The translations under genes and the position numbers were made by a program. DNA of 64,000 nucleotides. Source: Onthophagus taurus (lineage: Eukaryota > Arthropoda > Insecta > Coleoptera > Scarabaeidae). Below the pieces are notes generated by a model that ran no database searches, had not been told where the DNA came from, and saw only the letters and a list, made by a program, of their open reading frames with translations. The DNA is taken from positions 18,228,001-18,292,000 of the forward strand of contig NC_091976.1 in the NCBI RefSeq assembly GCF_036711975.1. The letters run 5' to 3'. This document shows positions 35,003 through 60,957 of this stretch, piece after piece (position 1 is the stretch's first letter; every line of letters begins with the position of its first letter).

Positions 35003-35342
35003 TTAAATCTCTTCGACAGGCGAACAATAACAATCCGGACAATAAATGATGTCACCCGTAATTGCTGCTTCTCCTTTCAGCGCAACTCTTTCTGTTAAAA
35101 TTACTTTTCCATTATTACAATTGCAAGGTGGGCAAGTGGAAGGTGGAGGAGGTGTAATTGTAACAAAATCGACAATCTCAGCTTTAACATCTCTTGTAAT
35201 TCGCTTTTCCCGAAGAGGATCTAAGATTTTTTTAATACAGTTATTATAAGAATATTATTATTACACGTGTTATTTATCACTTACCTGAAGCAACAATGTT
35301 GGTTAAACAAATTATTAGAACAATCGTGAGAAACAGCTTCAT
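35003..35342 (-). CDS. Small secreted cysteine-rich protein with twin CxxCxC motifs (91 aa, 2 exons)
   Basis: I reconstruct two exons: 35,285-35,342 and 35,003-35,220. The 64-bp intron has GTAAGT and ..TTAG borders and phase 1. The first exon encodes a classic signal peptide (MKLFLTIVLIICLTNIVAS). The mature part has a dibasic site shortly after the signal (REKR), a Pro-rich stretch (TPPPPSTCPPCNC) and a C-terminal CPDCYCSPVEEI, giving two CxxCxC motifs and six cysteines in all. Cleavage, secretion and disulfide or metal binding are inferred from these features. The start is the only ATG giving a signal peptide; a TATA box lies about 46 bp upstream and AATAAA follows the stop. Its exon 1 has the same 58-nt length and phase as five other genes in this cluster. 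No known family was recognised. Confidence 0.78.
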
Positions 35343-35387
35343 TTTGGTTACAAACTCGAAGTGACAAAGTTAATTTGTAGTGTGGAG

Positions 35388-35395
35388 TATTTATG
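35388..35395 (-). promoter_or_regulatory. TATA box of the 35-kb peptide gene
   Basis: CATAAATA on the minus strand, about 46 bp upstream of the start codon. This leaves a very short 5' UTR, as in the other cluster genes. Confidence 0.6.
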
Positions 35396-35704
35396 CAAGG
35401 TCATGCGGATCGTATGTATAACAGAAATGATAACAAAATGTACATTTCTAAATTTTATTGCTAATAACTCACGTTTCTCAAAAAATTCCTTTTAAAGCAT
35501 AACTTTTTCGTTTTTACTTTGTTTTAAAAATTTATTATTTAATAAATAATAATGTAAATAATAATATTACAAAAACAAAATAATTAATTATATACGAAAA
35601 TAATTGATTTAAATTCCTTTTTATGCGTAACACGCAAAGAATCGTTAAAATCATTAAAAGATGTTTTAAGAAATAGCAAACATAACCGATTTAATTAGGT
35701 TTAG

Positions 35705-35710
35705 TATAAA
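35705..35710 (+). promoter_or_regulatory. TATA box of the 35.7-kb peptide gene
   Basis: TATAAA, 36 bases before the ATG at 35,747. Confidence 0.65.
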
Positions 35711-35746
35711 GTGGTCTTAATACTAAAAAAATTTACTTTTTGTAAA

Positions 35747-36118
35747 ATGAGGTTTGAAATAATTGTTATATTTGTTTGTGTTATTGTTGGGCTTGCTACA
35801 GGTAGTTATTCTAAAAAAACGAAAAATTACTAAATAATTTTTATAAACTTAACTTTTTTTATGATAAGCTGCAACCCACAAGAAACATGCCGGTGTTAAA
35901 TCAGAGGAAGGGTCAACTCCTGCTCCTACTATTAAATGTAGTGCAGAGAACATCGATGCCATAGCAGGTAAACAACAAAAGGGTTTTATTTAATGTTCTT
36001 GATATACAGTATTCCATTTTGGTTTCCAGATGTTTTGAAAAAACTATGTGTGGCTGCTGCTGAAAGTACCGAAAAACGGCAAAAAATAAAAAACTTTTTA
36101 AATGGTAAGAAGTCCTAA
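35747..36118 (+). CDS. Small secreted peptide precursor, Lys-rich (80 aa, 3 exons)
   Basis: Exons are 35,747-35,801, 35,869-35,967 and 36,030-36,118. The introns (67 and 62 bp) have GT-AG borders and both are phase 1. Exon 1 encodes a signal peptide (MRFEIIVIFVCVIVGLAT). The mature part begins basic (AATHKKHAG), has a Glu/Ser/Thr/Pro linker, then a predicted amphipathic region with two cysteines (IKCSAENIDAIADVLKKLC) and a basic end (KRQKIKNFLNGKKS). If the last GT (36,103) is also used as a donor, the end would differ; reading on gives a natural stop within five codons, which I prefer. This is the only cluster member on the + strand, divergent from the 35.0-kb gene with about 400 bp between the start codons. 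Function unknown; general build is that of a secreted bioactive peptide. Confidence 0.72.
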
Positions 36119-36399
36119 TAACTATATGATGTTTTACATAATGATCTGATTTGATGATGATGTTGTTTAATTACTTTTAATGGATTATGATTGTTTATAT
36201 CTTTTGTTTGAAAATTTATTTGGTTTAACATATTATTTTTTGAAACGATGAGGTGAAATATACTTTAGAAATATGATTTTCTTGTTTGATTTATACATAT
36301 TCAAAAATTCCCTTGAATAATTTTTGACTAAAAAGTTTATGATTTTATTAGTTAAGTAACTTGTAAAAAAATTGAACTCAACATGAAAATAGTGACGAT

Positions 36400-37050: not shown

Positions 37051-37059
37051 ATGTGTCAA

Positions 37060-39949: not shown

Positions 39950-40780
39950 TTTGGATGGATTTGACTGATGGACTTGCATTTGAGAGAATGAAAATCCCCA
40001 TCACGAAAAGTTTCTTCACCCCAAATGAGATTGTTTGGGGCCCAATGTCATGTCGCGGAATATGTAATCGGTGCGATATTTTTTGATAGGATGAGATGTC
40101 AAAATTTTAGAAAAAAGTTCTTGTTGAAAAAAGCGACGAAAATATGTCGATAAGATGTGATACATACAAGACCGAGTACGACTCAAACAGAACAATAGAG
40201 ACTTTCAAATCCTGAAAGTTCCCTTCGGAGACCTTTTGAAAACTTGATCTGTTATTTCATATAGCTGGATTGGATCATTGGGACTATGTGGAGTACGAAC
40301 CACTAATTTCTGCTTTAAATACTCCACCATGTCTCTACCACCCCCAATTTTTTGCACAACATGCCAATCCACGACAAATAAACATTGGTATGTTACAGTT
40401 ATAACGACGACTAAAGGCAGTCGGGGAATAACACATGTTCAGCAATAATGTCTCTGAATACAGAGATGTTCTTCTTGATTTTCCTTACTAAAAGACACTT
40501 ATCACTGCTTGAGTTAAAACGCATTGTCGAATTCAATACATTAACTATTTCTTACAATGCTGCAGTATAAATAGGTTGTGTTATTTTGTGGTTAGAGTTT
40601 TCAATCCTATAGAGTGATTGCCTGATTTGTGGCTACTATGCTTTTTCGATTTTAAGTTTGTTGTATGTACTCCTCAACGTCGAAATTTCGAAGTACTTCA
40701 TCACAGGATTATTGTAACATACCTTGGAATTCAAACAATAAAAATTTACGTCATGGGTTAGAATAATGGCTATGTCATTC
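39950..40780 (+). pseudogene. Gene X remnant, copy 0 (unidentified, divergent partner of the peptide genes)
   Basis: This stretch shares two blocks with the later units. At 40,046-40,150 it can be read as QCHVAEYVIGAIFFDRMRCQ followed by NFRKKFLLKKA; the same block recurs at 47,214-47,320. At about 40,440-40,565 it matches blocks that in other copies read SEYRDDLLDYLPFLTKRHLS. Frames are broken. The 3' flank (40,618-40,765) is the same sequence that follows gene X at 43,700 and 53,570. I do not recognise the family. Confidence 0.35.
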
Positions 40781-41016
40781 TTTTGCGAACAAAGATCAGG
40801 ATATTGAAGAATTAAAATTTTATGTCATTGAGAGAATAAATTATACGACTTTTATAATTTTGATTTGTGGTCTTCATTTATTAAAAAAGTAACGTACAGA
40901 TATTGAATTCAAAACAATTAACACAAAGAATACAACTAAAAGCCGCAATATTGATTACCAAAATAAAACTTCATGCACTACACTTTTCAATAAACTGAAT
41001 ACAACCATGATTTTAA

Positions 41017-41355
41017 TTAGTGCTGCTTTTTACGTTTCTTGGTTGGACCACTTGCTCCCCCTTCAGATGGGGATTCAGATGCCATCACATCAGAACATAC
41101 TATATTGCACAATTTGTCCTTTATACCCTCCGCTATACCGAGTAGTCTCTTTTCTACAATATTAATACAATATTTTTTCTATTAACTTCAGCAATTGTAA
41201 TATTACTTACCTTCTTTGCCGTGCTTTGGAGTTGCTTATTTAGCGCAAATAAAATAAAGTTCAGTGTTTTTATTAAGTTTACATGAAATTTACTTACCAC
41301 CAATGATTGCTGCAAAAATTGCAAAAACCAAAAAAATAGTTATACTTAACTTCAT
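41017..41355 (-). CDS. Tandem secreted CX3C peptide, paralog A (72 aa, 3 exons)
   Basis: Exons on the minus strand are 41,298-41,355, 41,211-41,234 and 41,017-41,153, joined by 63- and 57-bp introns, both phase 1 with GTAAGT donors. The parts are a signal peptide (MKLSITIFLVFAIFAAIIG), a spacer (ATPKHGKEE), a Lys-Arg cleavage site and a mature region starting LLGIAEGIKDKLCNIVC. That region is an apparent amphipathic helix with cysteines in a CX3C spacing. A Ser/Gly/Pro-rich linker follows, then a basic tail (TKKRKKQH). This is the longest of the four tandem paralogs; B and C lost the linker. Processing at KR and secretion are inferred. A TATA box lies 77 bp upstream of the start. Divergent gene X remnants begin about 275 bp upstream on the other strand. 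Confidence 0.8.
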
Positions 41356-41431
41356 TTTTGATACTTTTTTTGCGATATCGACTTATGTTAAAGTAACTGA
41401 GTTACAATGATTAGAAGCTGTTTCAGTTTGA

Positions 41432-41440
41432 CTTTTATAG
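41432..41440 (-). promoter_or_regulatory. TATA box of paralog A, in a conserved promoter block
   Basis: CTATAAAAG on the minus strand. The surrounding ~130 bp (ATTTTGAAAGTATGCAAAGGACTCAATTAA and the TATA region) is repeated nearly unchanged before paralogs B, C and D. Confidence 0.7.
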
Positions 41441-41627
41441 GTATCTTTACGTAGTTAATGATTTTGAAAGTATGCAAAGGACTCAATTAATTTGTAATAA
41501 CATAGATAATAAAGTTATTGGATAATTAGTAAACAAATTAATTTTGAGTTATTTTAAGTGAAATTATAGATTACACGTGGCTATTTGGGTTTAGTTAAAT
41601 ATCCAAATAACTTGAAAAACAAAATGA

Positions 41628-43691
41628 CTTATTTTACATTTAACGATAATGAAGACGAAATTGTAATGAATGTCTCATTTCGACTTGAAATTGGAGGTTC
41701 GTTATTATTATGTAAAATAACATATTAATTATTTAGCTTGTGTTGAAAATGAAGATTATTTTTGTCCCAAAGAATATTGTAGAAAAAAAATTCAATTGAA
41801 ATCCTGAAGGAGCACTTCGGAGAGCGCATTATGGCTGCGGGGTACCCAGAGACCACTGGAATGGAAATAAGTTGGCCAGCATATCATCACATTTATTTTG
41901 GTGGGGCAATATTAAAGACAAAGATTATGACGATATCTTCATACTTCACCGGGTTTTGCAGAATTTTGCTCTTCACTTGCACTGTACTTGAATAATATTA
42001 TTCAAGTCAGTAGTTCTTGAAAACTTGATCTTTTATTTCATATAGCTCAATAATCGCATTTCATTGAAACCCATTTGGGATAATCATTATATCTGTGTGG
42101 AGCTCAAGACATCGATTTCTGCATTAAATTCTCTACAGTTTCTTAACCCAATTTCCCCCATGACAAACATGGGTAGAATGTTGGTAAGATAGCTTTATGG
42201 AAATTATAACGACGAGTAGGAGCTACTGGAAAATAACTCGAGAAATCACCAACCTCTTTGGGTAATGTAATAGACAATACTGGTGATATGTTTATTAATG
42301 AGGAGATGCAAATCCCTCTCGTCCCGATGGATATGATTTGATTAGGTTGGATTATTGGGACTGCTTTTAGTACAAAGCTCTGTTTTCTGCTTTAAATACT
42401 CCACCATCTCTTTAACATTTCCAATTTTTTGCACAACATGCCAATCCACGTCAAATAGACACTGGTCTGTTACAGTTATAGCGATGACTAGAGGCAGTCG
42501 GGGAATGACACATGTTCAATATTAATGTCTCTAAATACAGAGATGATCTTCTAGATTATCTATCTTTCCTTACTAAAAGAAACTTATCACTACCTGAGTT
42601 AAAACGCATTGGGGAATTCAACACATTCACGATTTCTTTCAATGCTGGAGTTTAAATGGGTTGTGTTACTTTGCTGGTGGATTTTTCAATCCTATACATA
42701 AACGATTTTCAACTGTTTGAGGAATAGGTTGGGTTGTTTATGGATAACATTTTATGCAAGAACCGGCTATCCTACATTATCCCCCTGATTTTGGGAAAAT
42801 ACTATCTTAAAATTCTTAAATGGAAAGCGGTAGCGTCCTGTATTCAACATGTTCAACAGAAAATGATCGTATAACATAAGTATGCTTAGAAGGGTAGAAA
42901 TGAGAACATTGAGCTCGATTATAGGAGTAACGTAACGTGATCAAAATATCATTAGAGTGACAAGATCAAGACAGGGCTGGAGAGACCATGTCGATAGAAT
43001 GGACGATAGTAGATGAGCGTAGTGAGCAATGGAAAAACAACCCACACCGAAAAAACTTCGTGGCTGACCATCTAACCAGTCTAACGGATGGGGATGAAAG
43101 TTGGACATCTGCATCTTAAGACTTTTAATAGTTTATAACAAACAACACTTAAATATGACTTTGTACTTGCAAAAAGATTTTGAAATTGTATTAATATATG
43201 GAGCCTAAAACGAATGTGATATCTCCAAAATCCTATTAACAAATTTATTCAGATTAGATCCGCTGAATGAAGCTGGTGTAACTGGAATTTCCTTCCATTC
43301 TGTTCCTAAAATTGTAATAATTTATACATTTGATCCTTATGAGTTTGACAATGCACAATTTTACGAAGAAATGACCTCTATAATTAATATTAATGCATTT
43401 GTAAAAATTATCCGCTTTATTGATAAATGTACATTTGATTTACATGGATTTTTAAATAAACATACCAGCATAGGTATATTGAAGCAAGGAATCCCTCATA
43501 TGACTGTAGAAGGACACACCTAGTATCCTAATAAAGTAATGTATCTATTAATATATAATAATTTGGGGATTTATTATTGTAATGGAAATCTATATGACGA
43601 AGGATATTTGAATATGTTAGAAAATACTATCAATTCGCTAATTTCTGAAGATCTGAAAATCAGTAGAAGGAAATATTCTTCTATAGCTTGA
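41628..43691 (+). pseudogene. Gene X remnant, copy 1 (unidentified; longest C-terminal part)
   Basis: The first block starts about 275 bp upstream of paralog A on the opposite strand (FTFNDNEDEIVMN at 41,640-41,678). Further blocks read NTGDMFINEEMQIPLVP (about 42,270-42,322) and, at about 42,580-42,620, a broken LPELKRI-like match. The final part, 43,218-43,691, is one frame of 158 codons with a single internal stop (TAG, 43,521-43,523), containing RLDPLNEAGVTGI, IIYTFDPYEFDNAQFYEEM and NMLENTINSLISEDLKISRR. So few stops in DNA this AT-rich means it was once coding. A LINE-like scrap (DHVDRMDDSR, about 42,980-43,010) interrupts it. I recognise no family; it may be a host gene or part of a mobile element that was duplicated along with the peptide genes. 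Confidence 0.45.
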
Positions 43692-43965
43692 ACCGATGGA
43701 GTGTTTGCCTGATTTGAGGCCACTATGTTTTTTTGATGGTTTAGTACTTCATCATAGGATTATTGTAACATACTTTACAATTCAAATAGTAAAAATGTAC
43801 GTCGTGGATTAGAATAATGATAATAATTTAATATACCATATTCGTTCGAATCTAAGACGCACTATTTTTGCTATACAGTATGTCCCCGGATCGAGTTACA
43901 AAGAGGAAACAAAAATTTATTACTGATTTTTCAAACTTATCTCAGCATAAATAATGCGTCGGATA

Positions 43966-44498
43966 CACACAGAGAAATATATTCTTGAACGAACATTATT
44001 ACTCTTGACTCAAGCTTATCATATTCTTATACATATATCCACAAGAAGATTATTTTGTTGAGTGAAGAAAAACCGCATATTCTCAAAGCAAGTATACAAA
44101 TATTCTTGATTCTCAAGAAAACGAATTCTTAGTAAAAGTAAATCAATAATCTTGAAAAAGAGTATCTTAGTGTTACGTCAACAACCCCATTTTCGTATCG
44201 AGAATAGATTTCTTAAGTCTTGAATAACGTATCTTTCTTTTTAGAAAAACTTATTCATGTAACAACAATCTTGTATAATTCTTCATTTGAGCATTATAAA
44301 TTATTGACGCAAGAATGGATTTTTTGGTACAAAAAATTGATATTCTTCGATACCAAGAATATGACATGCTTCATTCGATAATATTTCTATTCTTAAAACA
44401 AAAAAATATTTTTGTTTTAAGAGTGTCTTATACTTGTTTTTAAGAAATACGTTCAAGAATAAATTTTTCTTGAAAGTCAAGAATAATTTCCCTCAGTG
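43966..44498. mobile_element. Inner MITE inserted in the mariner's left inverted repeat
   Basis: The intact right arm of the mariner reads (in complement) GCGTCGGATATGTTCAAAC, while the left arm reads GCGTCGGATA, then 533 bp, then TATGTTCAAAC. So the insertion site and a TA duplication (43,964-43,965 and 44,499-44,500) are directly visible. The MITE ends are themselves inverted (CACACAGAGAAAT and ATTTCCCTCAGTG), followed by repeated ATTCTTGA blocks on both sides. Confidence 0.88.
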
Positions 44499-44796
44499 TA
44501 TGTTCAAACCACTAAATCGCACGAACTTTATATTCTAACTATAGAAGTTAACTAATTATTCCCATTTTTATATAAAAACTATACTTTTCCTAAACTAAAA
44601 ATTTTTCAAGTTCAATTTACGATATGTAACCATAAAAACCAATAAAATAAAAGTTACAACTTATGTTAGTGAAAAATAAACGGACAAATCAAATTAAAAT
44701 ATGGCTAATTGAATAAAATATTTTAAATGTAAATTTATGTAATAACACACTATGTAAGTAATAAATATTATTTATTTGTAAGTGAACAAATCCTCA

Positions 44797-45440
44797 TTCA
44801 AACAAATTCCCTCCCAATTCGACACACATTTGAAGATGAGTTCTAAATTCTTTATAAGAAGTACGAATTTCCGCCAGTGGTAGAGATTCTATCGCTTTAA
44901 TTACTCTTAGTTTTAATAGTTCTGCATCATCTTGTAATGGTTCACTGTAAACAATTTGTTTCAATCGTCCCCAAAAATAAAAATCCATAATTGTAAGATC
45001 AGGACTACGTGCTGGCCATCAAATAGGACCATTTCGTTCAATGCATTTTTGACGAAATTGTAAATTTAACCATTTGGCACAATGTGTGAATGGTAAGCTG
45101 GACAATTGTCTTGCTGAAAGTACATTGACCGTATAAAATTTAAGGGTAATTGGATTTACATCGCTCCAATACCGATAATGCTGGGAAGAAACAATGTCAT
45201 TTGTTGAAAAGCTATCTGAAAAGCAGCGTCTTCCTCATTTAGTCTCTTTGTCTGCCTCTTTATAATACAGAACCCGTTTCCAAATTTGTTTTCATCAGTT
45301 CGCGAGCCCCACATGAGATATTCTTGTGTCCGGATATTTTTGCTAGAATTTTTGTGTAACTACACGAAAACATGATTCACTAGTACCATAGTACAGTACT
45401 AAATAAATTCTCTCTTTCACGGTTAACTTCGCATTAAAAG
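44797..45440 (-). pseudogene. Internally deleted mariner-type transposase
   Basis: On the minus strand the C-terminal part is clear: WPARSPDLTIMDFYFWGRLK (about 44,960-45,018) with the last catalytic acidic residue, then IKAIESLPLAEIRTSYKEF and a stop after GGNLFE. Further upstream are a damaged KWLNLQFRQKCIERNGPI segment and, near 45,300-45,425, an N-terminal HTH trace (VKERIYLVLYYGTSESCFRVV). The middle, including the first two catalytic residues, is missing or unreadable, and there are stops. Lies inside the mariner element 43,874-45,710. Confidence 0.75.
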
Positions 45441-45794
45441 ACTTAATCTCACCAACATAAGTTGTAAGTTTTATGGTTTCTATGGTTACATATCATAAAT
45501 TGAAGTTCAATTTCAATTTTCAATTTAGAAAAAAGTCCAATTTTTACATAAAAATTGGAATAATTAGTTAACTTTTATAGTTAGAGTATAAAATTCATGC
45601 GATTTAGTAGTTTGAACATATCCGACGCATTATTTATGCTGAGATAAGTTTGAAAACTCAGTAACAAAAATTTTTTTCCTCTTTGTAACTCAATCCGAGG
45701 ACATACTGTATAATCGTTCATGGAAATGAGGTGCGTCTTACAATCGGGCGCGTCTTAGATTCGAACGAATTTTGAATATACAAAATGTTTGTGT

Positions 45795-46206
45795 CATTAT
45801 TGTGTAATAATAGTATATTATTCAACAAGCGTATAATGGCGGCTGTTACCCACGAAGAAGAAGTTGCAACACGAGCGAGCGAAGCGAGCGAGTGTTGTAA
45901 TCTGAGTGGGTAACATCCATTATACGCAAGTTGAATACTATACTTTATCTACAACTATTTAATTTTGAAAAAAAAATCAAAAAAACGAAAAAAAAATAAA
46001 CTTGATAGACATTTCAGACATAACCTCAATATAAGAAAGCTGTCATTTCTGTTAATATTTTATTTTTTGATTAGTAGGCAGTGTCAGAAGTGTGGAATAA
46101 TGGCCTCATTATTCAACACTTTGTCTGTCATGGGTAATGAGTGTCATTACCCGTCAAAAATCAATTGTATAACGAATAGATAATTCAATAGTTGTAGATA
46201 AAGTAA
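45795..46206. repeat. Palindromic element(s) with GAGCGAGCGAAGCGAGCGAG core
   Basis: Two hairpins are nested side by side. Between 45,815 and 45,943, GTATATTATTCAAC..GCGTATAATGG..TGTTACCCAC pairs with GTGGGTAACA..CCATTATACGC..GTTGAATACTATAC, with the GAGCGAGCGAAGCGAGCGAG block at the tip. Between 45,942 and 46,204, ACTTTATCTACAACTATT pairs with AATAGTTGTAGATAAAGT. They look like MITEs inserted in the outer element. Confidence 0.7.
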
Positions 46207-46532
46207 TTTATTTGTCATCTTTATTTTAATACGAATTTTTTTCTTCGATATAATCATTCAAAAGAATGGGGTGCGTCTTAGATTCGATCGAATACGGTAA
46301 TAATTTTGAAGGATTTAAATTTTATGTAATTGCAGAATAAATACGAGTTTTATAATTCTGATTTGTGGTCCTCATTTATTGAAAAAGTAACGTACAGATA
46401 TTGCTTTCAAAACAATTAAAACAAAGAATACAAATATAAGCCGCAATGTTGACTAACAAAATAAAACTACATGCGCTACACTTTTCAATAAACTGAATAC
46501 AACCATGGTGTATTCTACGTTTCTGGGCTGGA

Positions 46533-46822
46533 TCACTTCTTTTTTCCTCCCCCAGAACATACTATTTCGCAGAATTTCCCCCTTATATTCTCCGCTATAC
46601 CCAATAGTCTCTTTTCTACAATATTAATACAATATTTTTTTAAAACTATTAACCTCAGCAATTGTAATATTACTTACCTTCTTTGCCGTGCTTTGAAGTT
46701 GCTTATTTAGCATAAATAAAATAAAGTTCAGTACTTTTATTAACCTTAGATGAAATTAACTTACCACCAATGATTGCTGCAAAAATTGCAAAAATCAAAA
46801 AAAAAGTTATACTTAACTTCAT
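46533..46822 (-). CDS. Tandem secreted CX3C peptide, paralog B (54 aa, 3 exons)
   Basis: Exons on the minus strand are 46,765-46,822, 46,678-46,701 and 46,533-46,615, with introns of 63 and 62 bp, both phase 1. Signal peptide MKLSITFFLIFAIFAAIIG, spacer ATSKHGKEE, Lys-Arg site, then LLGIAENIRGKFCEIVC and a short basic end (SGGGKKK). Compared with paralog A, the linker and the distal basic tail are gone and a TGA at 46,533-46,535 ends the protein earlier; downstream sequence still resembles A's 3' end. The signal peptide and introns differ from A at only a few sites, while the mature segment has changed more. TATA box 68 bp upstream. Probably functional, as all splice sites and the CX3C core are kept. 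Confidence 0.78.
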
Positions 46823-46889
46823 TTTTGTTGCGATATCGACTTATGTTAAAGAAACTCAATATTAATGAATAGAAACGGTTTCATTTTGA

Positions 46890-46898
46890 CTTTTATAG
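46890..46898 (-). promoter_or_regulatory. TATA box of paralog B
   Basis: CTATAAAAG on the minus strand, in the same conserved promoter block as A, C and D. Confidence 0.68.
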
Positions 46899-47082
46899 GT
46901 TTCTTTACGTAGTTAATGATTTTGAAAGTATGCAGAGGACTCAATTAATTTGCAAAAAAACATGAATAATAACGTTGTTGATTGGGTAATTAGTAAACAA
47001 ATTTATTTTGTGGAATTATTGATTACACGTGGCTATTTCGGTTTAGTAAATATCCAAATAACTTAAAAAACGAATGGTTCAT

Positions 47083-47402
47083 TTTATATTTAACGATAAT
47101 GAAGACGAAATTGTAATGAATGCCTCATTTCGACTTGAACTTGAAGGTTTGTTATTACTATGTAAAATAATATATTAATTATTTTATTTGTGTTGAAAAG
47201 ATTATTTCTGTCCAATGTAATGTCGCGGAATACGTAATCTGTGCGATATTTTTTGAAGGGATGAGATGTCAAAATTTTAGAAAAGAAATTCAGTTGACTA
47301 AAAGATCTTGAAAAGATGTGATAGATGTAGGATCGAGCACGACCCGATAGAGTGTTTGAAATCCTGAAAGAACACATAGGAGAGCGCATTATGGCTGTGG
47401 GG
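47083..47402 (+). pseudogene. Gene X remnant, copy 2, 5' part (cut by the copia insertion)
   Basis: Starts about 260 bp upstream of paralog B with the shared block FNDNEDEIVMNASF, then QCNVAEYVICAIFFEGMRCQ (about 47,214-47,276). The sequence GAGAGCGCATTATGGCTG at 47,380-47,397 also occurs at 41,820-41,837. Here it stops against the LTR at 47,403. Confidence 0.4.
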
Positions 47403-47561
47403 TGTTGTAATTATTTATGCTCAGAGAGATCAAGATGCTCAAGATCTTTTTATGTTATATTATTTTATTGAAATATATTTTGTTTTTATAATATTGTACA
47501 TAACAACTGTAACTAACATTATATTATTAACGTCAACTATCTTGATAAACTAAATTCAACA
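47403..47561 (-). mobile_element. 3' LTR of a Ty1/copia-like element (159 bp)
   Basis: On the minus strand the LTR starts TGTTGAATTTAG directly after a purine tract (GAGGGAGGA, the usual plus-strand primer site) and ends ATAATTACAACA, giving TGTTG...CAACA ends. Short LTRs of this size are normal for copia-like elements. No 5' LTR is present. Confidence 0.75.
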
Positions 47562-47599
47562 TCCTCCCTCGATTACAACAGTATGAATTATCAGTAACG

Positions 47600-49060: not shown

Positions 49061-49109
49061 CATGATTTAGAGGTATAATTTAATAATAAAGACAACTGTT
49101 GCTTTGAGA

Positions 49110-50625
49110 TTCAATTAGCATGCTTTGAGGTTCGAATGTTTTCAACAGCATTCTAACAATCATTACCGAAATTATACCTAACTACATTGGTTCGTTAAAC
49201 CGATGGATATGGTTGGGTTGTATCATTGGGACTCTGTGGAGTACAGGGCACTGACTTATATTTTAAATACTACACCATCTCTAATATTCCCAATTTTTTG
49301 CACTACATGCTAATTTACGACAAATAGACACTGGTCTGTTAAAGTTATAACGACGACTAGAAGCAGTCAGGAAATAACACATGTTCAGTAATAACGTCTC
49401 TGAATACAAAGATGATATTCTAGATTATCTACCTTTCCTTACTAAAAGACACTTATCACTACCTGAGTTAAAACGCATTGTGCAATTCAATACATTAACG
49501 ATTTGTTTCAATGCTGGAGAATAAATGGGTTGTGTTACTTTGCGGGTGGAGTTTTCAATCCTATACATAAATGATTTTCAACTGTTTGAGGAATGGGTTG
49601 ATGTTTATGGATAACATTTTATGCAAGGACTGACTATCCTTTCAATCCTACATTAACCTCCTGACCTTGCGAAAATACTGTCTCAAAATTCTTAAATGGA
49701 ATCGTTCTGTATTCAATATGTTCAACAGAAAATAATGGTATAACAAAAGTATGCTTAGAAGGGTAGAAATGAGAACATTGAGATCGATTGTATGTATAAG
49801 TAATGTTACGTGATCAAAATATCATTAGAGTGACAAGATCAAGACGATGCTGGATGTCAATAGAACGGAGGACAATAGATGAGCGTAGTGGGCAAAGGAA
49901 AAAAGCTCACATCGAAGAAACTTTCTGGTTGATCATCTAACGGATGGCATGAAAGTTGGACATCCGCATCTCAAGAATATATAATAAGACTTTGTCTTAA
50001 TGAAATAACAATAATGGTTTACAGTACTTGCAGAAAGATTTTGAAATTGTATTAATATATTTGGAGCCTAAAACGAATGTGCTCGAAATACCGCAATATT
50101 TAACGATAGGCATCCAGATAAGAACACATCTAGCAGATATCTCAAAAATTGTATTAACAAATTTACTCAGATTAGATCCGCTCATTCAAGCCGCTTAAGT
50201 GAAAGTGTTGGGTCCTTTGGGCATAAATCCTAATACTTCATTATGTGAGATTTCTGGATCAACTCAAATTTCCTTGGGTTCATAAATTGTTCATAAAATT
50301 ATAAAACTTTATACATTCGATCCTTATCGGTTGAAAATGCAAAATTTTTCGAAGAAATAATATAATAATGCATTTGTAAAAATTATCCGCTTTAGTGATA
50401 AATGTTCATTTGATTTACATGGATTTGTAAATAAACATACCAGCAGAAATTGAAGTAATGAAACCCTCATATTATGGCTGTAGAAGGACACACCCAGTAT
50501 GATAAAAAAATAATGTATCTATTAATATCTAATAATTTGGAGACCAAGTAATTGGTCTATTGTTTATTAATGGAAATCTTTATGACAAAGGATATGAGAA
50601 TATGTTCGAAAATACTAATGTACGT
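49110..50625 (+). pseudogene. Gene X remnant, copy 2, 3' part
   Basis: Resumes after the copia remnant with blocks shared by the other units. At 49,392-49,530 a single frame reads SNNVSEYKDDILDYLPFLTK and RHLSLPELKRIVQFNTLTIC. After one stop, the same frame reads VTLRVEFSILYINDFQLFEE up to about 49,610. At 50,070-50,200 it reads NVLEIPQYLTIGIQIRTHLA and then DISKIVLTNLLRLDPL, followed by GPLGINPNTSLCEISG. The last block is degraded. Several stops show it is dead. The protein family remains unknown to me. Confidence 0.42.
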
Positions 50626-50891
50626 CGTGGGTTAGAATAATGATAATAATTTAATATAATAATTTTGAAGGATTTAAATTTTATGTCATTGCAGAATAAA
50701 TACGACTTTTATAATTCTGATTTATGGTCCTCATTTATTGAAAAAGTAACGTACAGATATTGCTTTCAAAACAATTAAAACAAAGAATACAAATATAAGT
50801 CGCAATGTTGACTAATAAAATAAAACTACATGCGCTACACTTTTCAATAAACTGAATACAACCATGGTGTATTCTACGTTTCTGGGCTGGA

Positions 50892-51185
50892 TCACTTCCT
50901 TTTTCCTCCCCCAGAACATACTATGTCGCAGAATTTCCCCCTTATACTCTCCGCTATACCGAGTAGTCTCTTTTCTACAATATTAATACAATATTTTTTC
51001 TATTAACTTCAGCAATTGTAATATTACTTACCTTCTTTGCCGTGCTTTGGAGCTTGGTGCTTTGCTTATTTAGCACAAATAAAATAAAGTTCAGTACTTT
51101 TATTAACCTTAGATGAAATTAACTTACCACCAATGATTGCTGCAAAAATTGCAAGAACCAGAAAAATAGTTATACTTAACTTCAT
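50892..51185 (-). CDS. Tandem secreted CX3C peptide, paralog C (57 aa, 3 exons)
   Basis: Exons on the minus strand are 51,128-51,185, 51,032-51,064 and 50,892-50,974; introns 63 and 57 bp, both phase 1. Signal peptide MKLSITIFLVLAIFAAIIG. Exon 2 is 33 nt instead of 24 through an in-frame 9-bp duplication, so the spacer reads AKHQAPKHGKEE. Then Lys-Arg, LLGIAESIRGKFCDIVC and SGGGKRK before the TGA. It is closest to paralog B in exon 3, but its intron 2 is closer to A. The frame and all splice sites are intact. TATA box 70 bp upstream. Confidence 0.78.
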
Positions 51186-51254
51186 TTTTGGTACTTTTGT
51201 TGCGATATCGACGAAGTAACTGAATTTCAATGATTAGAAGCTGTTTCAGTTTTA

Positions 51255-51263
51255 CTTTTATAG
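51255..51263 (-). promoter_or_regulatory. TATA box of paralog C
   Basis: CTATAAAAG on the minus strand, in the shared promoter block. Confidence 0.68.
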
Positions 51264-51449
51264 GTTTCTTTACATAGTTAATGATTTTGAAAGTATGCAA
51301 AGGACTCAATTAATTTGTAATAGCATGAATAATAACGTTGTTGATTGGGTAATTAGTAAACAAATTCATTTTGTGTTATTTTGAGTGGAATTATTGATTA
51401 CACGTGGCTCATTATGTTTTTGGTTAAATTTCAAATAACTTAACAAACA

Positions 51450-53561
51450 AAATGTTTCATTTTACATTTAACGACAATGAAAGCGAAATTGTAATGAATA
51501 TGCCTCATTTCGACTTGAAATTCGTTGTTTTTTTAGTTATGTAATAAATAATACTGGTGATACACATGTTTATTAATGAGGAGATGCAAATTCCTCTCGT
51601 CCCAGAGCTGATGTTCTGAATTAGTAAATACAAAGGCAAGAACTCAATCTAAATTAGCAGTAATACCTAAACCTCTACAGGCATTGCAAGAACAAGTTAA
51701 GCAAAAATTATTTTAGTTTTGTTTTGGTTTTTGTAGCATGCTTTGGGGTTCGAATTTTTCAATAGCATTCTATAAACAATCATTAACGAAATTATACCTA
51801 ACTACACTGGTTCGTTAAATCGATGGATATGATTTGGTTAGGTTGGGTCATTGGAAATTAGTACAAAGTACTAATTTCTGCTATAAATAGTCCACCATCT
51901 CTCTAACATTTCCAATTTTTTACACAACATGCCAATCCACGACAAATAGACACTGATCTATTACAGTTATAGCGATGACTAGAAGCAGTCGGGAAATGAC
52001 ACATGTTCAGTAATAATGAATCTGAATACAGAGATGATATTCTAGTATCTAGATTATCTACCTTTCCTTACTACAAGACACTTATCACTACCTGAGTTAA
52101 AACGCATTGTGTAATACAATACATTAACGATTTCTTTCAATTCTGTAGAATAAGTGGGTTGGGTTACTTTGCGGGTGGAGGTTTCAATCCTATACACAAA
52201 TGATTTTCCAATGTTTGAGAAGTGGGTTGGGTTGTTAATGGATAACTTTTTATGCAAGAACTGACTCTCCTACATGAACCCCCTGAAATGAGAGCATTGA
52301 GATCGATTATAGGAGTAACGTTACGTGATCAAAATATCAGAAGAGGGACAAAAGAGCCCTTTGGAAGTCAGAGCAAGTCAATTTGGCAGGTCGGATGTTT
52401 TAGTATATTTAGCAACTATCAGATCTTTGGGGACTGCCGTCATTAACACAGGTCGATTTTTTTTAATATGGGGGTGGATAAAAGAGCTCTTAGGAAGTCA
52501 GAGCAAGTAAATCTCGCCACATTGACAGGTGGGATGTTTTAGTATATTTAGCAACTATCAGATCTTTGGGGCTGCCGTCGTTAACACAGGGCTATAATTT
52601 TTAATATGAGGGTAAGACTGCCTTTACAAAATCGGAGTAAGACAATTTATTTACGCTAATTTTTCAATTGTATTTATTGCTGTGTTTCAAATTGATCGAC
52701 CTTTGGAATCAATATAATCGTCGAATTTTCTGTAGTTTTGTTGCTTACAAATTAGAGCGTGTGAAACCGACTTCACTGTATACCCGGTGATCTCTCTGAA
52801 ATGGCGTGCTGTTGTCACAACCGGCAATGGCAATGGAAAAAACCCACATCGAAGAAAAACTTCCTGGCTGACCATCTAACAAACAACACTTAAATAAAAC
52901 TTTGTACTTGCAGAAAGATTTTGAAATTGTAAATTAATATATGGAGTCCAAAATGAATGTGCTCGAAATACCGCAATATTTAACGAAAGGCTAAGATGAG
53001 AACACATCTAACAGATATCTCAAAAATCCTATTAGCAAATTTACTCAGATTAGATCCGTTCAATGAAGTTACTCAAGTGAAAGTGTTGGGTTCTTTCGGC
53101 ATAAATCCCAATACTTCATTACGTAAGATTTCTGGTGTAACTCGAATTTTCTTGGGTTCTGTTGATAAAATTATAAAACTTTATACATTCGATCCTTATA
53201 TATTGAAAATACATAATTTTGCGTAGAAATTACCCCTATAATTAATAATAATGCATTTGTAAAAATTATCCGCTTTAGTCATAAATGTTCATTTCATTTA
53301 CATGGATTTGTAAATAAACATACCAGCAGATATTGAAGTAACGAAACCCTCATATGAGTGAAGATGGACAAACCTAGTATCCTAAAAAGTAATGTATCTA
53401 TTAATATCTAATAATTTGGGGACCAAGTAATATGTCCATTGTTTATTAATGGAAATCTATACGATGAAGGATATTTGAATATGTTAGAAAATACTATCAA
53501 TTCGCTAATTTCTGAAGATCTGAAAATCAATTGGAGGAGGGAATACCCTTCTATAGACTGA
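51450..53561 (+). pseudogene. Gene X remnant, copy 3
   Basis: Begins with ATG at 51,452 and reads MFHFTFNDNESEIVMNMPHF in one clean frame, the best-preserved start of the five copies. Then NTGDMFINEEMQIPLVPEL (about 51,562-51,610), a damaged copy of the SEYRDD..LPELKR block (52,010-52,115) and, from 52,996, a clean 76-codon frame (MRTHLTDISKILLANLLRLD, then GSFGINPNTSLRKISGVTRI and IIKLYTFDPYILK). The end block (NMLENTINSLISEDLKINWR) is at about 53,478-53,540. Two near-identical ~170-bp stretches at 52,336-52,600 (GAAGTCAGAGCAAGT...AGATCTTTGGGG) are a local direct duplication inside it. Confidence 0.42.
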
Positions 53562-53951
53562 ATCTATGGAGTGTTTGCCAGATTTGAGGCCACTATGCTT
53601 TTTCGATGATTTTATTTTAACATTGTTCTATTTACCCCTCAACCTCGAAATTTCGAAGTACTTCATCACAGGTTTATTGTAACAAACCTTGGAATTCAAA
53701 TAGTAAAAATGTACGTCGCGGGTTAAAATAATGGAAAAATAAATTATACGACTTTTATAATTCTAATTTGTGGTCCTCATTTATTAAAAAAGTAAAGTAC
53801 AGATATTGCTTTCAAAACAATTAAAACAAAGAATACAAATATAAGCCGCAATATTGATTAACAAAATAAAACTAGATGCGCTACACTTTCACAAAACTGA
53901 ATACAACCATGATTTTAATTAATGGTGTGTATTCTACGTTTCTGGGTTGGA

Positions 53952-54259
53952 TCACTTTCTTCTTCCTGCTCCTATGGGAAATACAGATGTCAGCACAGTA
54001 GAACATACTTTATCACAGATTTTCTTGTTTAAACCTCCGAATAGTCTCTTTTCTACAATATTAATACAATATTTTTTTAGAAATATTAACCTCAGCAATT
54101 GTAATATCACTTACCTTCTTTGCCATGGTTTGAAGTTGCTTATTTAGCACAAATAAAATAAATTTTAGTATTTTTATTAACCTTAGATCAAAATAACTTA
54201 CCACCAATAATTGCTGCAAAAATTGCAAAAACCAAAAAAATAATTATACTTATGTTCAT
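53952..54259 (-). CDS. Tandem secreted CX3C peptide, paralog D (60 aa, 3 exons)
   Basis: Exons on the minus strand are 54,202-54,259, 54,115-54,138 and 53,952-54,052; introns 63 and 62 bp, both phase 1. Signal peptide MNISIIIFLVFAIFAAIIG and spacer ATSNHGKEE are conserved, then Lys-Arg. The mature part differs strongly: LFGGLNKKICDKVC, followed by STVLTSVFPIGAGRRK. CX3C and the basic end are kept, while nearly all other residues changed. It also lost two codons in the helix region relative to A. This contrast between a frozen signal peptide and a changed mature peptide suggests diversifying selection. TATA box 78 bp upstream. Confidence 0.78.
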
Positions 54260-54335
54260 TTTCGATATTTTTGTTGCGAAATCGACTTATGTTAAAGTAA
54301 CTCAATTTTACTGATTAGAAGCTGTTTCATTTTGA

Positions 54336-54344
54336 CTTTTATAG
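54336..54344 (-). promoter_or_regulatory. TATA box of paralog D
   Basis: CTATAAAAG on the minus strand. Confidence 0.68.
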
Positions 54345-54532
54345 ATTTCTTTACGTAGATAATGATTTTGAAAGTATGCAAAGGACTCAATTTGTAATAA
54401 CATGGATAATAACGTTGTTGCTTGGTTAATTAACAAACAAATTAATTTTGCGTTATTTTGAGTGGAATGATAAATTATACGTGGCTATAGGTTTAGTCAA
54501 ACATCTAAATAACTTAAATAGCAAAATATTCC

Positions 54533-54645
54533 ATTTTACATTTAACGATAATGAAGACGAAATTGTAATGAATATGCCTTATTTCGACCTGAAATTGGAT
54601 GTTTGTTATTATTATGTAAAATAATATGTTAATTATTTTGTTTGT
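54533..54645 (+). pseudogene. Gene X remnant, copy 4 (first block only)
   Basis: The frame FHFTFNDNEDEIVMNMPYFD starts at about 54,530 but its ATG is ATA. It is open to a TAA after CYYYVK. The rest of gene X is absent; a LINE remnant begins at 54,651. Confidence 0.38.
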
Positions 54646-55720: not shown

Positions 55721-56243
55721 TCTTATTATACGCTTTTTTGGACGTTAAAGAGTCCAAAAGTAGTGTTTTCTAATTAAATTGTTTCGTCTTTCACTTTGTA
55801 CAAGTCTGAAATCAAATTTACTAAATATTAAATTGACGAGTTAAATTATCGTGATTTTTCTATCAGTTGTGTGGTTATCTGGTTCCTGTAACAAAGCCTG
55901 CTTGTTCTGGAAGGATTTAGTGTTCTAGATAATACTTTAGCTTTTGATCGATGATTGTCAACAGGACTTTCCTAGCATGACAGATGAGTGTTATGATTGA
56001 GTAATTTTTACATTTTTGTATAGAGTAACGATATAAATATCGATTGCCTCCAATCTGGTGAATGATTAGAGATATATAAATTAAGATCATAGACTAACAT
56101 TTAGTTACTCAACCTATCTCAAACAATCACCTTACTTATTGTTAGAGAATCTTAGAGGCTATCCACAAAGGGGTGGAATTTCATGGTCTTTTTGCTCATG
56201 ACAAGACTTTGATGTAGCTTGAAATTCCTAAAACTCCTTTTTA
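55721..56243. other. AT-rich DNA without recognised genes
   Basis: Probably more decayed LINE on the minus strand, but no motif can be supported. Confidence 0.35.
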
Positions 56244-57446
56244 TACAGAGTGAGTCAGAAAGAATGGAAAATCCGAATACCGGAGATACTAGACACCAAA
56301 ATATGATGATTTAATGTAACATCTCTTATACAAATGTCAGTGGTTTTCGAGACATAGGGTGTTGAAAGTTAAATTCTTATTTCGAAATTTCTTGATAATT
56401 TTGAAGGTTTTTGTACTATTAACATAAAATTTGGTAGTTTTATGTTTTCGAGCATGAGAAATACGAATTTGAAACTTGTTTTGTTATTGCTCGTAGAGGG
56501 CGCTAGATACACGCTGCTCGTTTGATAAATCAAATCATAAGTTTTTTGGCTCGACAGCTACGACCAATAAAAGCTGCAAATCACAAAGAGTATTCAATTT
56601 TACATAAAAAAGGTACTCTTATTGAAATTGTCTAAGTTTATCGGTGTTCGAATTATTTACTTTTAAATGTTTAAATGTATATTTTCTTCTAAAATATTTA
56701 TTTTTTAACACAAGTAAAGTTGGGTTATTTTTCCGCTTATGTTTCGACAATTGCCTGTTAATTTATTGTCAACATTGATCTAATTTCCGTGTGCAATAAT
56801 CATTTTTACCAACAATAAAGTTATTACCAATTTGAAAATGCCACAACATAATGAGTTTTTTAATAGTGAGAAATCCAGATTTAAGTCCACTGGATTTTTG
56901 AAAATGGTCACAATATTCTATTGTTATTAATTAATTGTTATTGTTATCGATTATTATCGTTACTAATTGTTATAGTTACTGCGTTATTGATTTTAAACGT
57001 TAACCTTAAAATTACTTTGAAACAATTAAAAGCAGATAACTTGGAAACCAGTAGACTTAGACAATGTAAGCAAGAGTACCCTTTTTGTGCAGAATTGAAA
57101 ACTCCTTCAGATTTCTGGTTCTAATTCACCATACCTCAACTTACAAAATAGTCATGACTTGATATCTCAAACGTAGTGTGTATCTAGCGCCCTCTACAAG
57201 TAATCACAAAACAAATATCAAATTCGTATTTCTCATGTTCGAAAACATCTAACTACCAAATTTTATGTTAATAGTACAAAAACCTTCAAAATTATCAAGA
57301 AATTTCGAAATAAAAATTTAACATTCAACACCCTGTGTATTAAAAACCACCGACATTTGTATAAGACATGTTAGGTTAAATCGTCATATTTTGGTGTCTA
57401 GTGTCTCCGGTATTCGGATTTCCCATTCTTTCTGACTCACCCTGTA
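56244..57446. mobile_element. Foldback Tc1/mariner-like element with ~280-400-bp inverted arms
   Basis: TACAGAGTGAGTCAGAAAGA at 56,244 is mirrored by TCTTTCTGACTCACCCTGTA ending at 57,446, and the inverted match runs through blocks such as CCGAATACCGGAGA, TTTTGGTGTCTAG, TCAAGAAATTTCGAAATAA and GAGGGCGCTAGATACAC, then more weakly to GTACTC..TTGTCTAAG. TA flanks both ends (56,242-56,243 and 57,447-57,448). No transposase can be read in the centre. Confidence 0.85.
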
Positions 57447-57879
57447 TATACATCATTTTTCTTTTCAGAGATAAATTGTTTTGAACGATCTAAAAAGGTA
57501 CTGTGAGTACTAGATTAGCAAATAAAATAAAATAATGTCATTTACAGCTGCATATTCAAGCATTTCAACATTACTATATTTGGAAGAGAGCTCATCAAGT
57601 ATCAGAAGTGCTTTCTGTCTTCATATATCTTCTAAATCAAAAGTTGTTGATTTTACGTAAGATGGTAAGGTACAAATCCTTTTGTCTATTGAATATTACT
57701 ACGAGAGAGATTTTGTATTTGAGGTAAAAACATTCTGCAAAGCGCATCATCATTTGTGGACAACTATATACAAGATGTCAAGTTTCATTATTATTTTATT
57801 AATTAAATTAAAAATAAAACAGACGTTTTTTATAAAGCAATCACACAATTTATTAACAAAGTACTTTATTTCGAAATCA

Positions 57880-58651: not shown

Positions 58652-58710
58652 ATTGACTGTTATTGAAACTAAATTAATAGTTAATATGATTAACCAGATG
58701 TTGAGTAAAG

Positions 58711-58718
58711 CTTTTATA
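58711..58718 (-). promoter_or_regulatory. TATA box of the 58-kb peptide gene
   Basis: TATAAAAG on the minus strand, 60 bp upstream of the start codon. Confidence 0.65.
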
Positions 58719-58937
58719 CTAATCTAAAAGGTAATTTGAAATCGAAGGTATGTGAAAAACTTTAACTGGTCCTAATTAATTGCAGTTAATTATGTTGTTT
58801 TTAAGGAATAAATTAGTTTATTGGTGTATTTTAATCATTTTAAATAATAGATATATTGTGGGTTAAGTAATTGAAATACCAAGAAGGAATATTATTATTA
58901 TCCATAATGTTTTTCAACAACCTGTGGAAACAAAACA

Positions 58938-59085
58938 AAATGTTTCATTTTACATTTAACGATAATGAACACGAAATTGTAATGAATATGCTTCATTTCG
59001 ACTTGAAATTGGATGTTTGTTATTATTATGTAAAATAATATATTAATTATTTTGTTTGTGTTGAAAAGATTATTTTTGGTTAAAT
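58938..59085 (+). pseudogene. Gene X remnant, copy 5 (first block only)
   Basis: An ATG at 58,940 opens MFHFTFNDNEHEIVMNMLHF and continues to TAA after CYYYVK, the same first block found upstream of paralogs A-D. It lies about 290 bp upstream of the 58-kb gene on the opposite strand, so this gene shares the upstream arrangement of the tandem paralogs although its protein differs. Confidence 0.4.
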
Positions 59086-59216
59086 AAAAAATTAGTAGTA
59101 TAGACGCAATCAACAATATTTATTAATAGCATAAAATCACACCAACATTCTTTTTTGACAATTTGTCTTGTTCACATATATTGGTATATTGTATAAAATG
59201 TTTCTTAATGTACTAT

Positions 59217-60329
59217 TAGGGCTTGCAATACCGGACTAAAATCTCAATGCCGGTATTCAAATTTTTTAAAATCGGGATACCGGTATTAATACCGGTATTG
59301 CTATGAAAAAATTTACTCACTAAATTACAATCACTAAATATATCTAATTGTAAGATTTTTTCCCCTCTGCGACGTCACCTCTACTAACAACAGGTTAATT
59401 CCTACTATATTTTTAGAGTGGCAACAAAGCATAAGATACAGAATCTGAGAAGATAATCAAAAAATGGAAAGATATTAGGAATCTGTACAAAGTACCAATA
59501 AACTTAAAGGTCTAGATACCATTATTGTTTTGATGTCTTTCACTTGGTCCAAAGGTTCAACTTCACTACCACGTCAAAAAATGAAATTACACTTCATCAT
59601 CTGAAGCTCTGTGGAATTCTTTCGAATTCCTGCTTTGGAATTTTCTGGAAAGGTGCAGATTCAAGACAGAAACTTTAACATAATGGATCTTGGTAGTTTG
59701 TCAGACTTATCATACCATTGTTATACTTGGTGGGACACTACACGAATCAAACTCACCTGAAACACCATTATGAAGTAAAAACTCCACATCCAAAAATAGT
59801 TATATACAGAGGGTATTTTATTGTTGGCTTGGTATGACAAATTTATTAAACACGAACATTAAGTTGTCGTCATCAAAGGTTGAGTCTTCATTATCTTCAA
59901 CATTCTGTAAGAGTGCAAAATGATATTTCTTGTAGATGGTATTCACACTGATCAAAAAATGTTACTTGAAAAAATGAAGTTAGTAAGGACATAAGATAGA
60001 TAACAAATTTCTGTTTGGTCAACATCATTTTCCAGCACAGCTTTAAACACGGCCGTTTTCAATCGGTCGCCTTCGGCTAGCATTTTTTTAATGAAACGTC
60101 AAAAAATGTTACTTGACAATGTAAACTTAGAACGGACAGAAGATAGATAACAAACAAGAATCCTCTACGTCATTTTCCAGCACAACTTCAAACTAGCACG
60201 GCCGTTTTCGAAGACCTGGCCATCGAAGGCGCTAATTAAAGATAATACCGAAATACCGGTATTTTTCCATCGATACCGGTTTTTAATACCAGACAAAAAT
60301 TGTCCGGGATCCCGGTATTGCAAGCTCTA
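59217..60329. mobile_element. Non-autonomous hAT-like element with 8-bp target duplication
   Basis: Starts TAGGGCTTGCAATACCGG and ends CCGGTATTGCAAGCTCTA, matching the TAGRG...CYCTA ends of hAT elements. The 8 bp TGTACTAT are duplicated exactly on both sides (59,209-59,216 and 60,330-60,337). Subterminal ATACCGGTATT palindromes abound at both ends. The 1.1-kb interior has no readable transposase. It contains a direct repeat of about 140 bp (59,951-60,087 and 60,100-60,235, both with ATGTTACTTGA, AGATAGATAACAAA, CATTTTCCAGCAC and CGGCCGTTTTC). Confidence 0.9.
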
Positions 60330-60337
60330 TGTACTAT

Positions 60338-60534
60338 ATGCATAATTAAATAATAATTATTAATAATTCACCGCCTTGGAAAATTTCATAGATATTGATA
60401 ATAATTTTGATAAAGCTACTATCCATGACAACGAGGTTATATTAGGCAGTAAAGTTCTTCTGCCCTGTGGTGAGTGGTTCTTTCTCTAAGTCGATCTCCT
60501 CATTTCTGACTAATTGATTCGATGGTGTTTAAGT
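60338..60534. other. Short unassigned spacer
   Basis: Nothing recognised. Confidence 0.4.
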
Positions 60535-60712
60535 CCACTGAGTTGTTATTTGTTTCCACCTGAAACAATCTTCACCTTCTCTCAATGTTGATTGTAGAGG
60601 CATCTCGGTGATGCTCTTAATTTAGTCTAGTTGTCTAGAAGGTGCTCTGCCACTGGGGCGTTTATCGTGGGCCCTGTCCTGTGTTACTAATTTTTCCTGG
60701 ATTGTTTCGTTA
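60535..60712 (-). repeat. Second copy of the LINE 3' end seen at 54,651-54,830
   Basis: GAGTTGTTATTTGTTTCCAC through CTGGATTGTTTCGT repeats the 54.65-kb sequence with about 10% differences. It stops exactly where similarity to the 58-kb peptide gene begins. Confidence 0.8.
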
Positions 60713-60957
60713 AATTTTGTTTTTTAAATTAAACGATTAAAAAATTATAACTAAACGATACCTAATGCATCTTCAACAGCTTGTTGGTTTTCACCTTCAG
60801 CAAAGGTTTTTCTGGGCCGTTCTCTGTTAATAACAAATTTTGTGTTAGTTTTACTTCATTAATCAAACTTTGCTTACTCATGTAAATACATGCTGTTGTG
60901 AAGCCGAGAATAGAAAAAACAAGGAAGAATATTATACAGAATTTCATGTTGACTTTT
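60713..60957 (-). pseudogene. Truncated pseudogene of the 58-kb peptide gene
   Basis: The signal peptide exon is present (start ATG at 60,945-60,947; MKFCIIFFLVFSILGFTTAC) and differs from the 58-kb gene at few sites. Intron 1 is present and its donor context changed from ATGG to ATGA before GTAAGC. Exon 2 then runs directly into exon 3 (AGAAAAACC joined to TTTGCTGAAGGTG) because a deletion removed the end of exon 2, intron 2 and the start of exon 3, so the rest is out of frame and stops at CAT TAG. Exon 4 is absent. The conserved promoter with its TATA box is also missing. Similarity ends at 60,713, against a LINE fragment. Confidence 0.8.

Follow-up and report, generated by a model that had tools for sequence, protein, structure and literature searches.

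Does the run of tiny genes in a 26-kb stretch of the genome of the dung beetle Onthophagus taurus encode a real family of secreted peptides, and what might these peptides do? The genes lie in a window of 64,000 nucleotides (nt) of contig NC_091976.1 (positions 18,228,001 to 18,292,000 of the forward strand, assembly GCF_036711975.1), numbered here from its first letter. A sequence-only reading of this window had proposed nine small secreted-peptide loci, built like the fast-evolving arsenals of venom, saliva, antimicrobial or seminal peptides. The current analysis indicates that the cluster is very probably a real, lineage-restricted secreted family. Its products are predicted prepropeptides that would be cut at Lys-Arg (KR) sites into short peptides, for which a role as male accessory-gland (seminal) signals is put forward as a tentative assignment. 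Such a small, chromosome-placed family, with four genes apparently unannotated, is of importance because O. taurus is among the foremost models in research on developmental plasticity and sexual selection.

Within the 26 kb, eight intact gene models and one broken copy could be rebuilt from the sequence. All nine loci listed previously are present, although the heading of that list (eight loci, seven of them intact) contradicted its own content. With one more gene just beyond the window the tally rises to ten loci, so the earlier count, right for the window, was slightly understated. The loci, the tandem block and the best-defined promoter element are as follows.

35342-35003, minus strand: g35m, 91 residues, exons 35342-35285 and 35220-35003; predicted signal peptide, KR site and two CxxCxC motifs.
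35747-36118, plus strand: g35p, 80 residues, exons 35747-35801, 35869-35967 and 36030-36118; mature part beginning in His-Lys fashion (ATHKKH), two Cys residues, TATAAA at -42.
39278-38828, minus strand: g38, 88 residues, exons 39278-39221, 39148-39125, 39068-38976 and 38919-38828; RVRR site, Lys/His-rich tail, TATAAA at -72.
41355-41017, minus strand: g41, first CX3C gene, 72 residues, exons 41355-41298, 41234-41211 and 41153-41017.
46822-46533, minus strand: g46, second CX3C gene, 54 residues, exons 46822-46765, 46701-46678 and 46615-46533; C terminus GGGKKK.
51185-50892, minus strand: g50, third CX3C gene, 57 residues, exons 51185-51128, 51064-51032 and 50974-50892; C terminus GGGKRK.
54259-53952, minus strand: g54, fourth CX3C gene, 60 residues, exons 54259-54202, 54138-54115 and 54052-53952; C terminus GAGRRK.
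58651-58128, minus strand: g58, 88 residues, exons 58651-58582, 58527-58489, 58415-58341 and 58210-58128; acidic middle, Lys-rich tail, TATAAA at -67.
60947-60762, minus strand: g60, a broken copy of g58, 93% alike across 157 nt.
65353-64652, minus strand, just outside the window (about 18292652-18293353 of the contig): g65, 155 residues, five exons, introns all of phase 1.
40800-54600, no strand: tandem block with the four CX3C units and their co-amplified flanks.
41474-41432, minus strand: promoter element of g41, ending TATAAAAG, with relatives before g46, g50 and g54 and partial ones before g38 and g58.

The eight intact models encode 54 to 91 residues each, and all 17 of their introns are GT-AG, of phase 1 and 54 to 130 nt long; the residue range, phase and intron lengths agree with the sequence-only reading. 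Every intact model has a hydrophobic start (signal peptides were predicted by hydropathy only) and at least one KR or Arg-Arg (RR) pair. The TATA box that had been claimed for each intact gene is found as TATAAA at -42 to -84 in seven of the eight, the exception being g35m, which has only CATAAATA at -53. The second splice donor of g58, GTTTGT, is weak. In its broken copy, an internal deletion spans the second intron and the shifted frame runs into an early stop; no adjacent last exon was found, and the g58 promoter is unrecognisable upstream. The cluster, the common gene plan and the predicted secretion that had been read as the build of a secreted arsenal are upheld; the accompanying list of venom, saliva, antimicrobial and seminal uses had been given without evidence.

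A scan of 264 kb for first exons, defined as an ATG with a hydrophobic start and a phase-1 donor, returned 29 hits. Nine of them have an upstream TATAAA and seven of these nine lie inside the cluster, compared with 0 to 2 TATAAA hits (mean 0.7) in each of ten order-2 Markov control sequences. The donor type of g35p entered the scan only after g35p had been seen; when it is left out, eight TATAAA hits remain, six of them in the cluster, and thirty Markov sequences yield 0 to 4 each (mean 1.1). Signal-like first exons preceded by TATAAA are enriched in the cluster over chance. The downstream exon chains of the single-copy genes are individually less secure than the signal exons.

The reality of the gene plan is best checked on g65, as its model, built before the database comparison, turned out to match an annotated protein in length. 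Its first exon surfaced in the 264-kb scan lacking TATAAA but having TATATAA at -56, and the encoded protein is rich in His and Lys, with CX3CX3C following KR sites. The model has the same length as O. taurus LOC111424262, an uncharacterized protein in nr, and the two align without gaps and are alike at 150 of 155 residues (97%). The name LOC111424262 was absent among the matches listed from a search of the open literature. The g65 match is a single check; for g35m and g35p, nothing outside the cluster lends comparative support.

As for the lineage restriction of the family, none of the 43 candidates scored reached E <= 1 when the CX3C set was compared with 5.8 billion proteins, and g65 matches O. 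taurus only. The protein collection includes O. taurus records, as two positive controls, g65 and a methyltransferase-like neighbour, found their matches; the lack of a CX3C match thus suggests that the four genes are missing from that annotation, while saying nothing on transcripts seen by others. The earlier suspicion that the locus may be unannotated therefore fits the four CX3C genes, which look unannotated, but not their annotated neighbour g65, and g35m, g35p, g38 and g58 were not searched there. This suggests that tiny genes with phase-1 exons may escape annotation even beside an annotated larger relative. In the beetle's own genome (290.8 Mb in 33 contigs), no copies outside the cluster were detected for the CX3C first exon with its promoter, g41 exon 3, the last exon of g65 or exon 2 of g35m, nor for g58, g35p and g38; g35m exon 2, g35p and g38 each occupy a single place. 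Such searches can overlook diverged copies, given that exon 3 of g54 went undetected when g41 exon 3 served as the protein query; the DNA search with the CX3C first exon and promoter did not return g38.

No Pfam family scored above its cut-off. Weak scores for DUF1218 (g54), Gastrin (g58; 16.4 bits against a cut-off of 22.2) and DUF3679 (g35p) were rejected as falling below the cut-offs, and so were the NCBIfam scores. In sequence searches of the PDB, g41 and g65 had only hits at chance level and g35m had no hit. Changing arrays of small secreted peptides are already known; this particular family appears to be new.

The clearest view of how these genes evolve is offered by the CX3C set. DNA comparison confirmed the tandem subfamily discerned previously: the four genes are tandem duplicates, spaced 5.5, 4.4 and 3.1 kb from start to start. 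A stop-ridden gene remnant (about 40270-40480, 42350-43700, 49220-50600 and 51840-53600) was co-amplified with the CX3C units. The signal exon, the Cys pair, the KR site and the frame are preserved in all four copies; the indels of exon 2 (9 nt) and of mid-exon 3 (9 and 27 nt) all have lengths divisible by three, in contrast to one of 5 nt in intron 2, and another gap of 27 nt, towards the exon-3 end, merely reflects the positions at which the frames are cut. Pairwise divergence amounts to 0.05-0.10 in the promoter, introns and 3' region, 0.12-0.18 in the far flanks, 0.04-0.12 in exons 1 and 2, and 0.06-0.31 in exon 3. Noncoding DNA near the genes diverges less than the far flanks in five of the six gene pairs (p < 0.05), and whole exon 3 diverges more than the near noncoding DNA in five pairs (p <= 0.013) and more than the far flanks in three (p < 0.05). 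At aligned sites, exon 3 is 69-82% identical in five pairs and 94% identical in the sixth.

Judging from these comparisons, the gene frame seems to be held, by either constraint or gene conversion, and the mature exon seems to change at about the background rate or somewhat faster, with g54 and the C-terminal ends accounting for most of the apparent rewriting. For the CX3C genes, the fast-evolving mature parts of the sequence-only reading are borne out in this sense, and the mature parts are likely diversifying.

Kinship beyond the CX3C four is less direct. Promoter elements are common to six of the eight intact genes. In the 290.8 Mb, one exact pattern taken from the promoters matches solely g38 and the CX3C four, and a second one solely g58 and the CX3C four; the matches within the cluster arise by construction, and the result lies in the absence of the patterns elsewhere in the genome. 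Among 21 pairs of upstream regions, the scores of g38-g41, g41-g58 and g35m-g35p were reached by none of 300 shuffles, but the last of these was discarded as a sign of relatedness because both of its windows include the same AT-rich stretch (35487-35602) in opposite orientations. These two genes are divergent, with their start codons 404 bp apart (35343-35746 in between), and may be driven by a shared bidirectional promoter that contains an imperfect, AT-rich inverted repeat; they belong to the cluster by position and gene plan only. When the mature parts were compared, again in 21 pairs, the scores of g38 against g41, g58 and g65 were reached by 3, 5 and 0 of 1000 composition shuffles. With that many pairs tested, scores reached 3 to 5 times per 1000 are suggestive only, and the likeness of g38 to g65 sits in a Lys/His repeat, which shuffling does not imitate. 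The claim that the mature parts share little was slightly overstated, in that g38 aligns with these three above most shuffles, though weakly.

It can be imagined that several peptide classes of unrelated appearance (the amidated CX3C type, the Lys/His-rich type, Lys-rich tails and perhaps the CxxCxC type) all descend from a single ancestral gene, whose promoter and signal exon stayed fixed while symmetric phase-1 exon cassettes were swapped and rewritten. We regard this origin as rather doubtful. If true, it would amount to a secreted-peptide generator in a dung feeder, and the gall-midge pattern, in which the mature part changes within a conserved frame, would need no plant host.

What the products do has to be approached through their predicted processing. 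The proteins can be expected to be secreted and to be cut at KR or RR into short peptides. Such dibasic processing is probable on the strength of the sites, keeping in mind that KR and RR pairs come easily in proteins as rich in Lys and Arg as these. The proteins g46, g50 and g54 end in Gly and three Lys/Arg residues; in known prohormones, Gly followed by basic residues gives rise to a C-terminal amide. A cut after EEKR would release from each of these three a peptide of about 20 to 26 residues, predicted to be C-terminally amidated and to contain one CX3C pair joined by one disulfide.

This same precursor anatomy of g46, g50 and g54 (a signal peptide, a short propeptide, a KR cut and an amidated product, 20-26 residues long, that has a single disulfide) would suit peptide hormones or neuropeptides. 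That the cluster encodes such peptides is nevertheless very unlikely, given that no Pfam family scored above its cut-off and that the mature parts of the CX3C genes are not more conserved than their surroundings, as those of insect neuropeptides usually are.

Seminal signals are placed first among the possible functions because the accessory glands of dung beetles express many lineage-restricted secreted genes. In Catharsius molossus, the 45 highest-expressed accessory-gland genes include 33 secretory ones, 22 of which have no counterpart in other insects (PMC8382682). Duplication and phase-1 exon cassettes would allow the mature exon to change while the signal exon and promoter stay fixed, and one gland could thereby release a set of changing ligands. 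The assignment to seminal tissue, which we infer from the biology of dung beetles, carries somewhat less than an even chance.

The main rival is defence: an animal living in dung might release antimicrobial or antifungal peptides from a barrier tissue or the fat body, with the Lys/His-rich pieces acting as histatin-type metal-binding or membrane-active peptides. It could draw on the His/Lys-rich segments of g35p, g38 and g65 (2, 3 and 13 His residues, respectively), on the basic tails, and on the helix that AlphaFold2 assigns to residues 4-26 in the mature piece of g41 with low to moderate confidence (mean predicted local distance difference test score [pLDDT] of 62.9; a second model had a mean pLDDT of 57.7, which is low confidence). 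Tandem turnover, too, is common among defence peptides. However, the predicted CX3C mature peptides are near neutral (net charge of -1 to +2) and no more amphipathic than shuffled sequences, as their hydrophobic moments were reached by 9-28% of the shuffles; both properties argue against classical membrane-active antimicrobial peptides. In addition, no Pfam antimicrobial family scored above its cut-off, and the defensin Cys pattern occurs in none of the 10 sequences. Strict kB sites are absent from all nine upstream regions (background, only 3% of 600-bp stretches), a loose form occurs in one of the nine (background, 14%), and there is no GATA excess, all of which is weak, uninformative evidence. 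Defence is considered rather unlikely, yet a serious rival.

A salivary, gut or maternal secretion similar to the SSSGP proteins of the Hessian fly, but serving digestion, the conditioning of brood balls or action on dung microbes, has a still lower probability. The tandem layout resembles that of SSSGP-1, and the divergence pattern is alike, if milder (PMC2955719); on the other side, no host plant is involved here. Venom was rejected, as the nearest named match belongs to a dung beetle; we know of no venomous dung beetle.

Several observations weigh against processed, diversifying seminal peptides. No feature of the cluster is specific to male tissue, and the sole KR of g35p is close to its C terminus. 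The g38-g58 promoter match is not above chance (70 of 300 shuffles), and g35m and g35p are without the promoter element common to the others. When only the first 62 nt of exon 3 are counted, where the alignment is safe, exon 3 exceeds the promoter and introns (p < 0.05) in three of the six pairs, all of them with g54 (p = 0.037, 0.0015 and 0.0069), and exceeds the far flanks in one. The exon-3 excess comes partly from the C-terminal end, because the g41 frame enters what is the 3' region of the others and makes the alignment there doubtful. The youngest pair, g46-g50, shows no such excess, and six pairs drawn from four genes are not independent. For the mature part, the ratio of nonsynonymous to synonymous divergence (dN/dS) comes to 0.5-1.2, and for the first 18 columns of that part to 0.8-1.8, both from few changes and with no significance test; values near 1 on so few changes are no proof of positive selection, as relaxed constraint also fits. 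Finally, four of the five residues that differ between g65 and LOC111424262 fall in two Cys-bearing exons, which is no more than a hint because these exons make up 86 of the 155 residues.

The gene models themselves face a further objection: in 8 to 47 of 400 trials (about 2-12%, depending on donor strictness and chain length), random sequence placed behind a signal exon yielded a chain that reached or exceeded 70, 80 or 88 residues. Together with dN/dS near 1 and one broken locus among the nine of the window, this would be expected if there were no functional family at all, only chance exon chains or decaying copies. Such an outcome is highly improbable: all four CX3C copies keep their frame, signal exon, KR site and pair of Cys residues, their promoter, introns and 3' region are more conserved than the flanks in five of the six pairs, and an annotated member, g65, lies next door.

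The surroundings of the cluster include several other elements. Between g54 and g58 lies an inverted repeat (56230-56515 and 57175-57460) with 286-nt arms that are 90% complementary and 659 nt apart, maybe a foldback or miniature transposon. Two open frames, 61966-62337 and 63073-63480, are nearly identical across long parts and resemble a mariner-type transposase; the open frames at 18759-20460 resemble LINE (long interspersed nuclear element) reverse transcriptase and RNase H. Beyond the window, one long open frame (84782-86491) belongs to the DUF229 family, with a weaker sulfatase score, and several tandem methyltransferase-like open frames occupy 98445-117001, starting about 33 kb past g65. 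One of the latter genes, at ~116-117 kb, agrees at 222 of 230 residues (97%), across a guessed junction, with a juvenile hormone acid O-methyltransferase-like protein of O. taurus. Elsewhere, a mitochondrial COX1/COX2 stretch (C1:21445288-21449628), open under translation table 5, was found beside a LINE-like frame in a large contig, where it either was inserted into nuclear DNA or reflects a join made in assembly. The 35.0-Mb contig of the window carries, at its left end, (AACCC)n from about base 220 (within the first 600 bases), i.e., the TTGGG telomere type, and no such array is seen in the last 601 bases at the right end. This telomere type has been reported for O. taurus from a database search (PMC8233369) and also in a lacewing (PMC12564400). 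A neuropteran origin of the DNA was rejected in view of the protein matches, which point to O. taurus or a very close relative.

Set beside known systems, the family differs from each of them. With insect CS-alpha-beta defensins and coprisin-type beetle peptides it has in common the small size, the predicted secretion and, in some members, Cys residues, but the six-Cys order C..CXXXC..C..CXC of the defensins occurs in none of the 10 sequences, and no Pfam defensin was found. The CX3C mature peptides lack the charge and hydrophobic moment of linear cationic amphipathic peptides, and there is no Pfam match to a known family of insect neuropeptide precursors. LOC111424262, the annotated counterpart of g65, is longer than the eight intact models, with 155 residues in five exons.

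The accessory-gland novelties of C. molossus, a dung beetle of the same subfamily, are lineage-restricted and secreted, as the products of the cluster are predicted to be (PMC8382682); that set was defined by expression. The KQY/KHI effectors of the pea aphid likewise combine a conserved signal-coding region with diverged parts made of miniature exons. Two such aphid genes span 45.7 kb with 37 exons and 21.8 kb with 10 exons (PMC7495047), whereas the genes described here span 0.3-0.7 kb and have 2-5 exons.

The SSSGP families of the Hessian fly share with the beetle cluster the tandem arrangement, a short signal exon, an intron at the border of signal and mature parts and lineage-restricted proteins. 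In that system, the promoter, intron and 3' region are more conserved than the mature part (PMC2955719); the beetle genes show a resemblance to this pattern, in a milder form. The beetle genes differ in belonging to another insect order, in having no host plant, in a core exon-3 excess confined to the g54 pairs, and in their several phase-1 exons and Lys-Arg and Gly-Lys/Arg sites. The gall-midge authors suggest that the conserved-frame pattern might be linked to host-plant change (PMC2955719). A milder pattern of this type in a dung beetle would separate it from plant parasitism.

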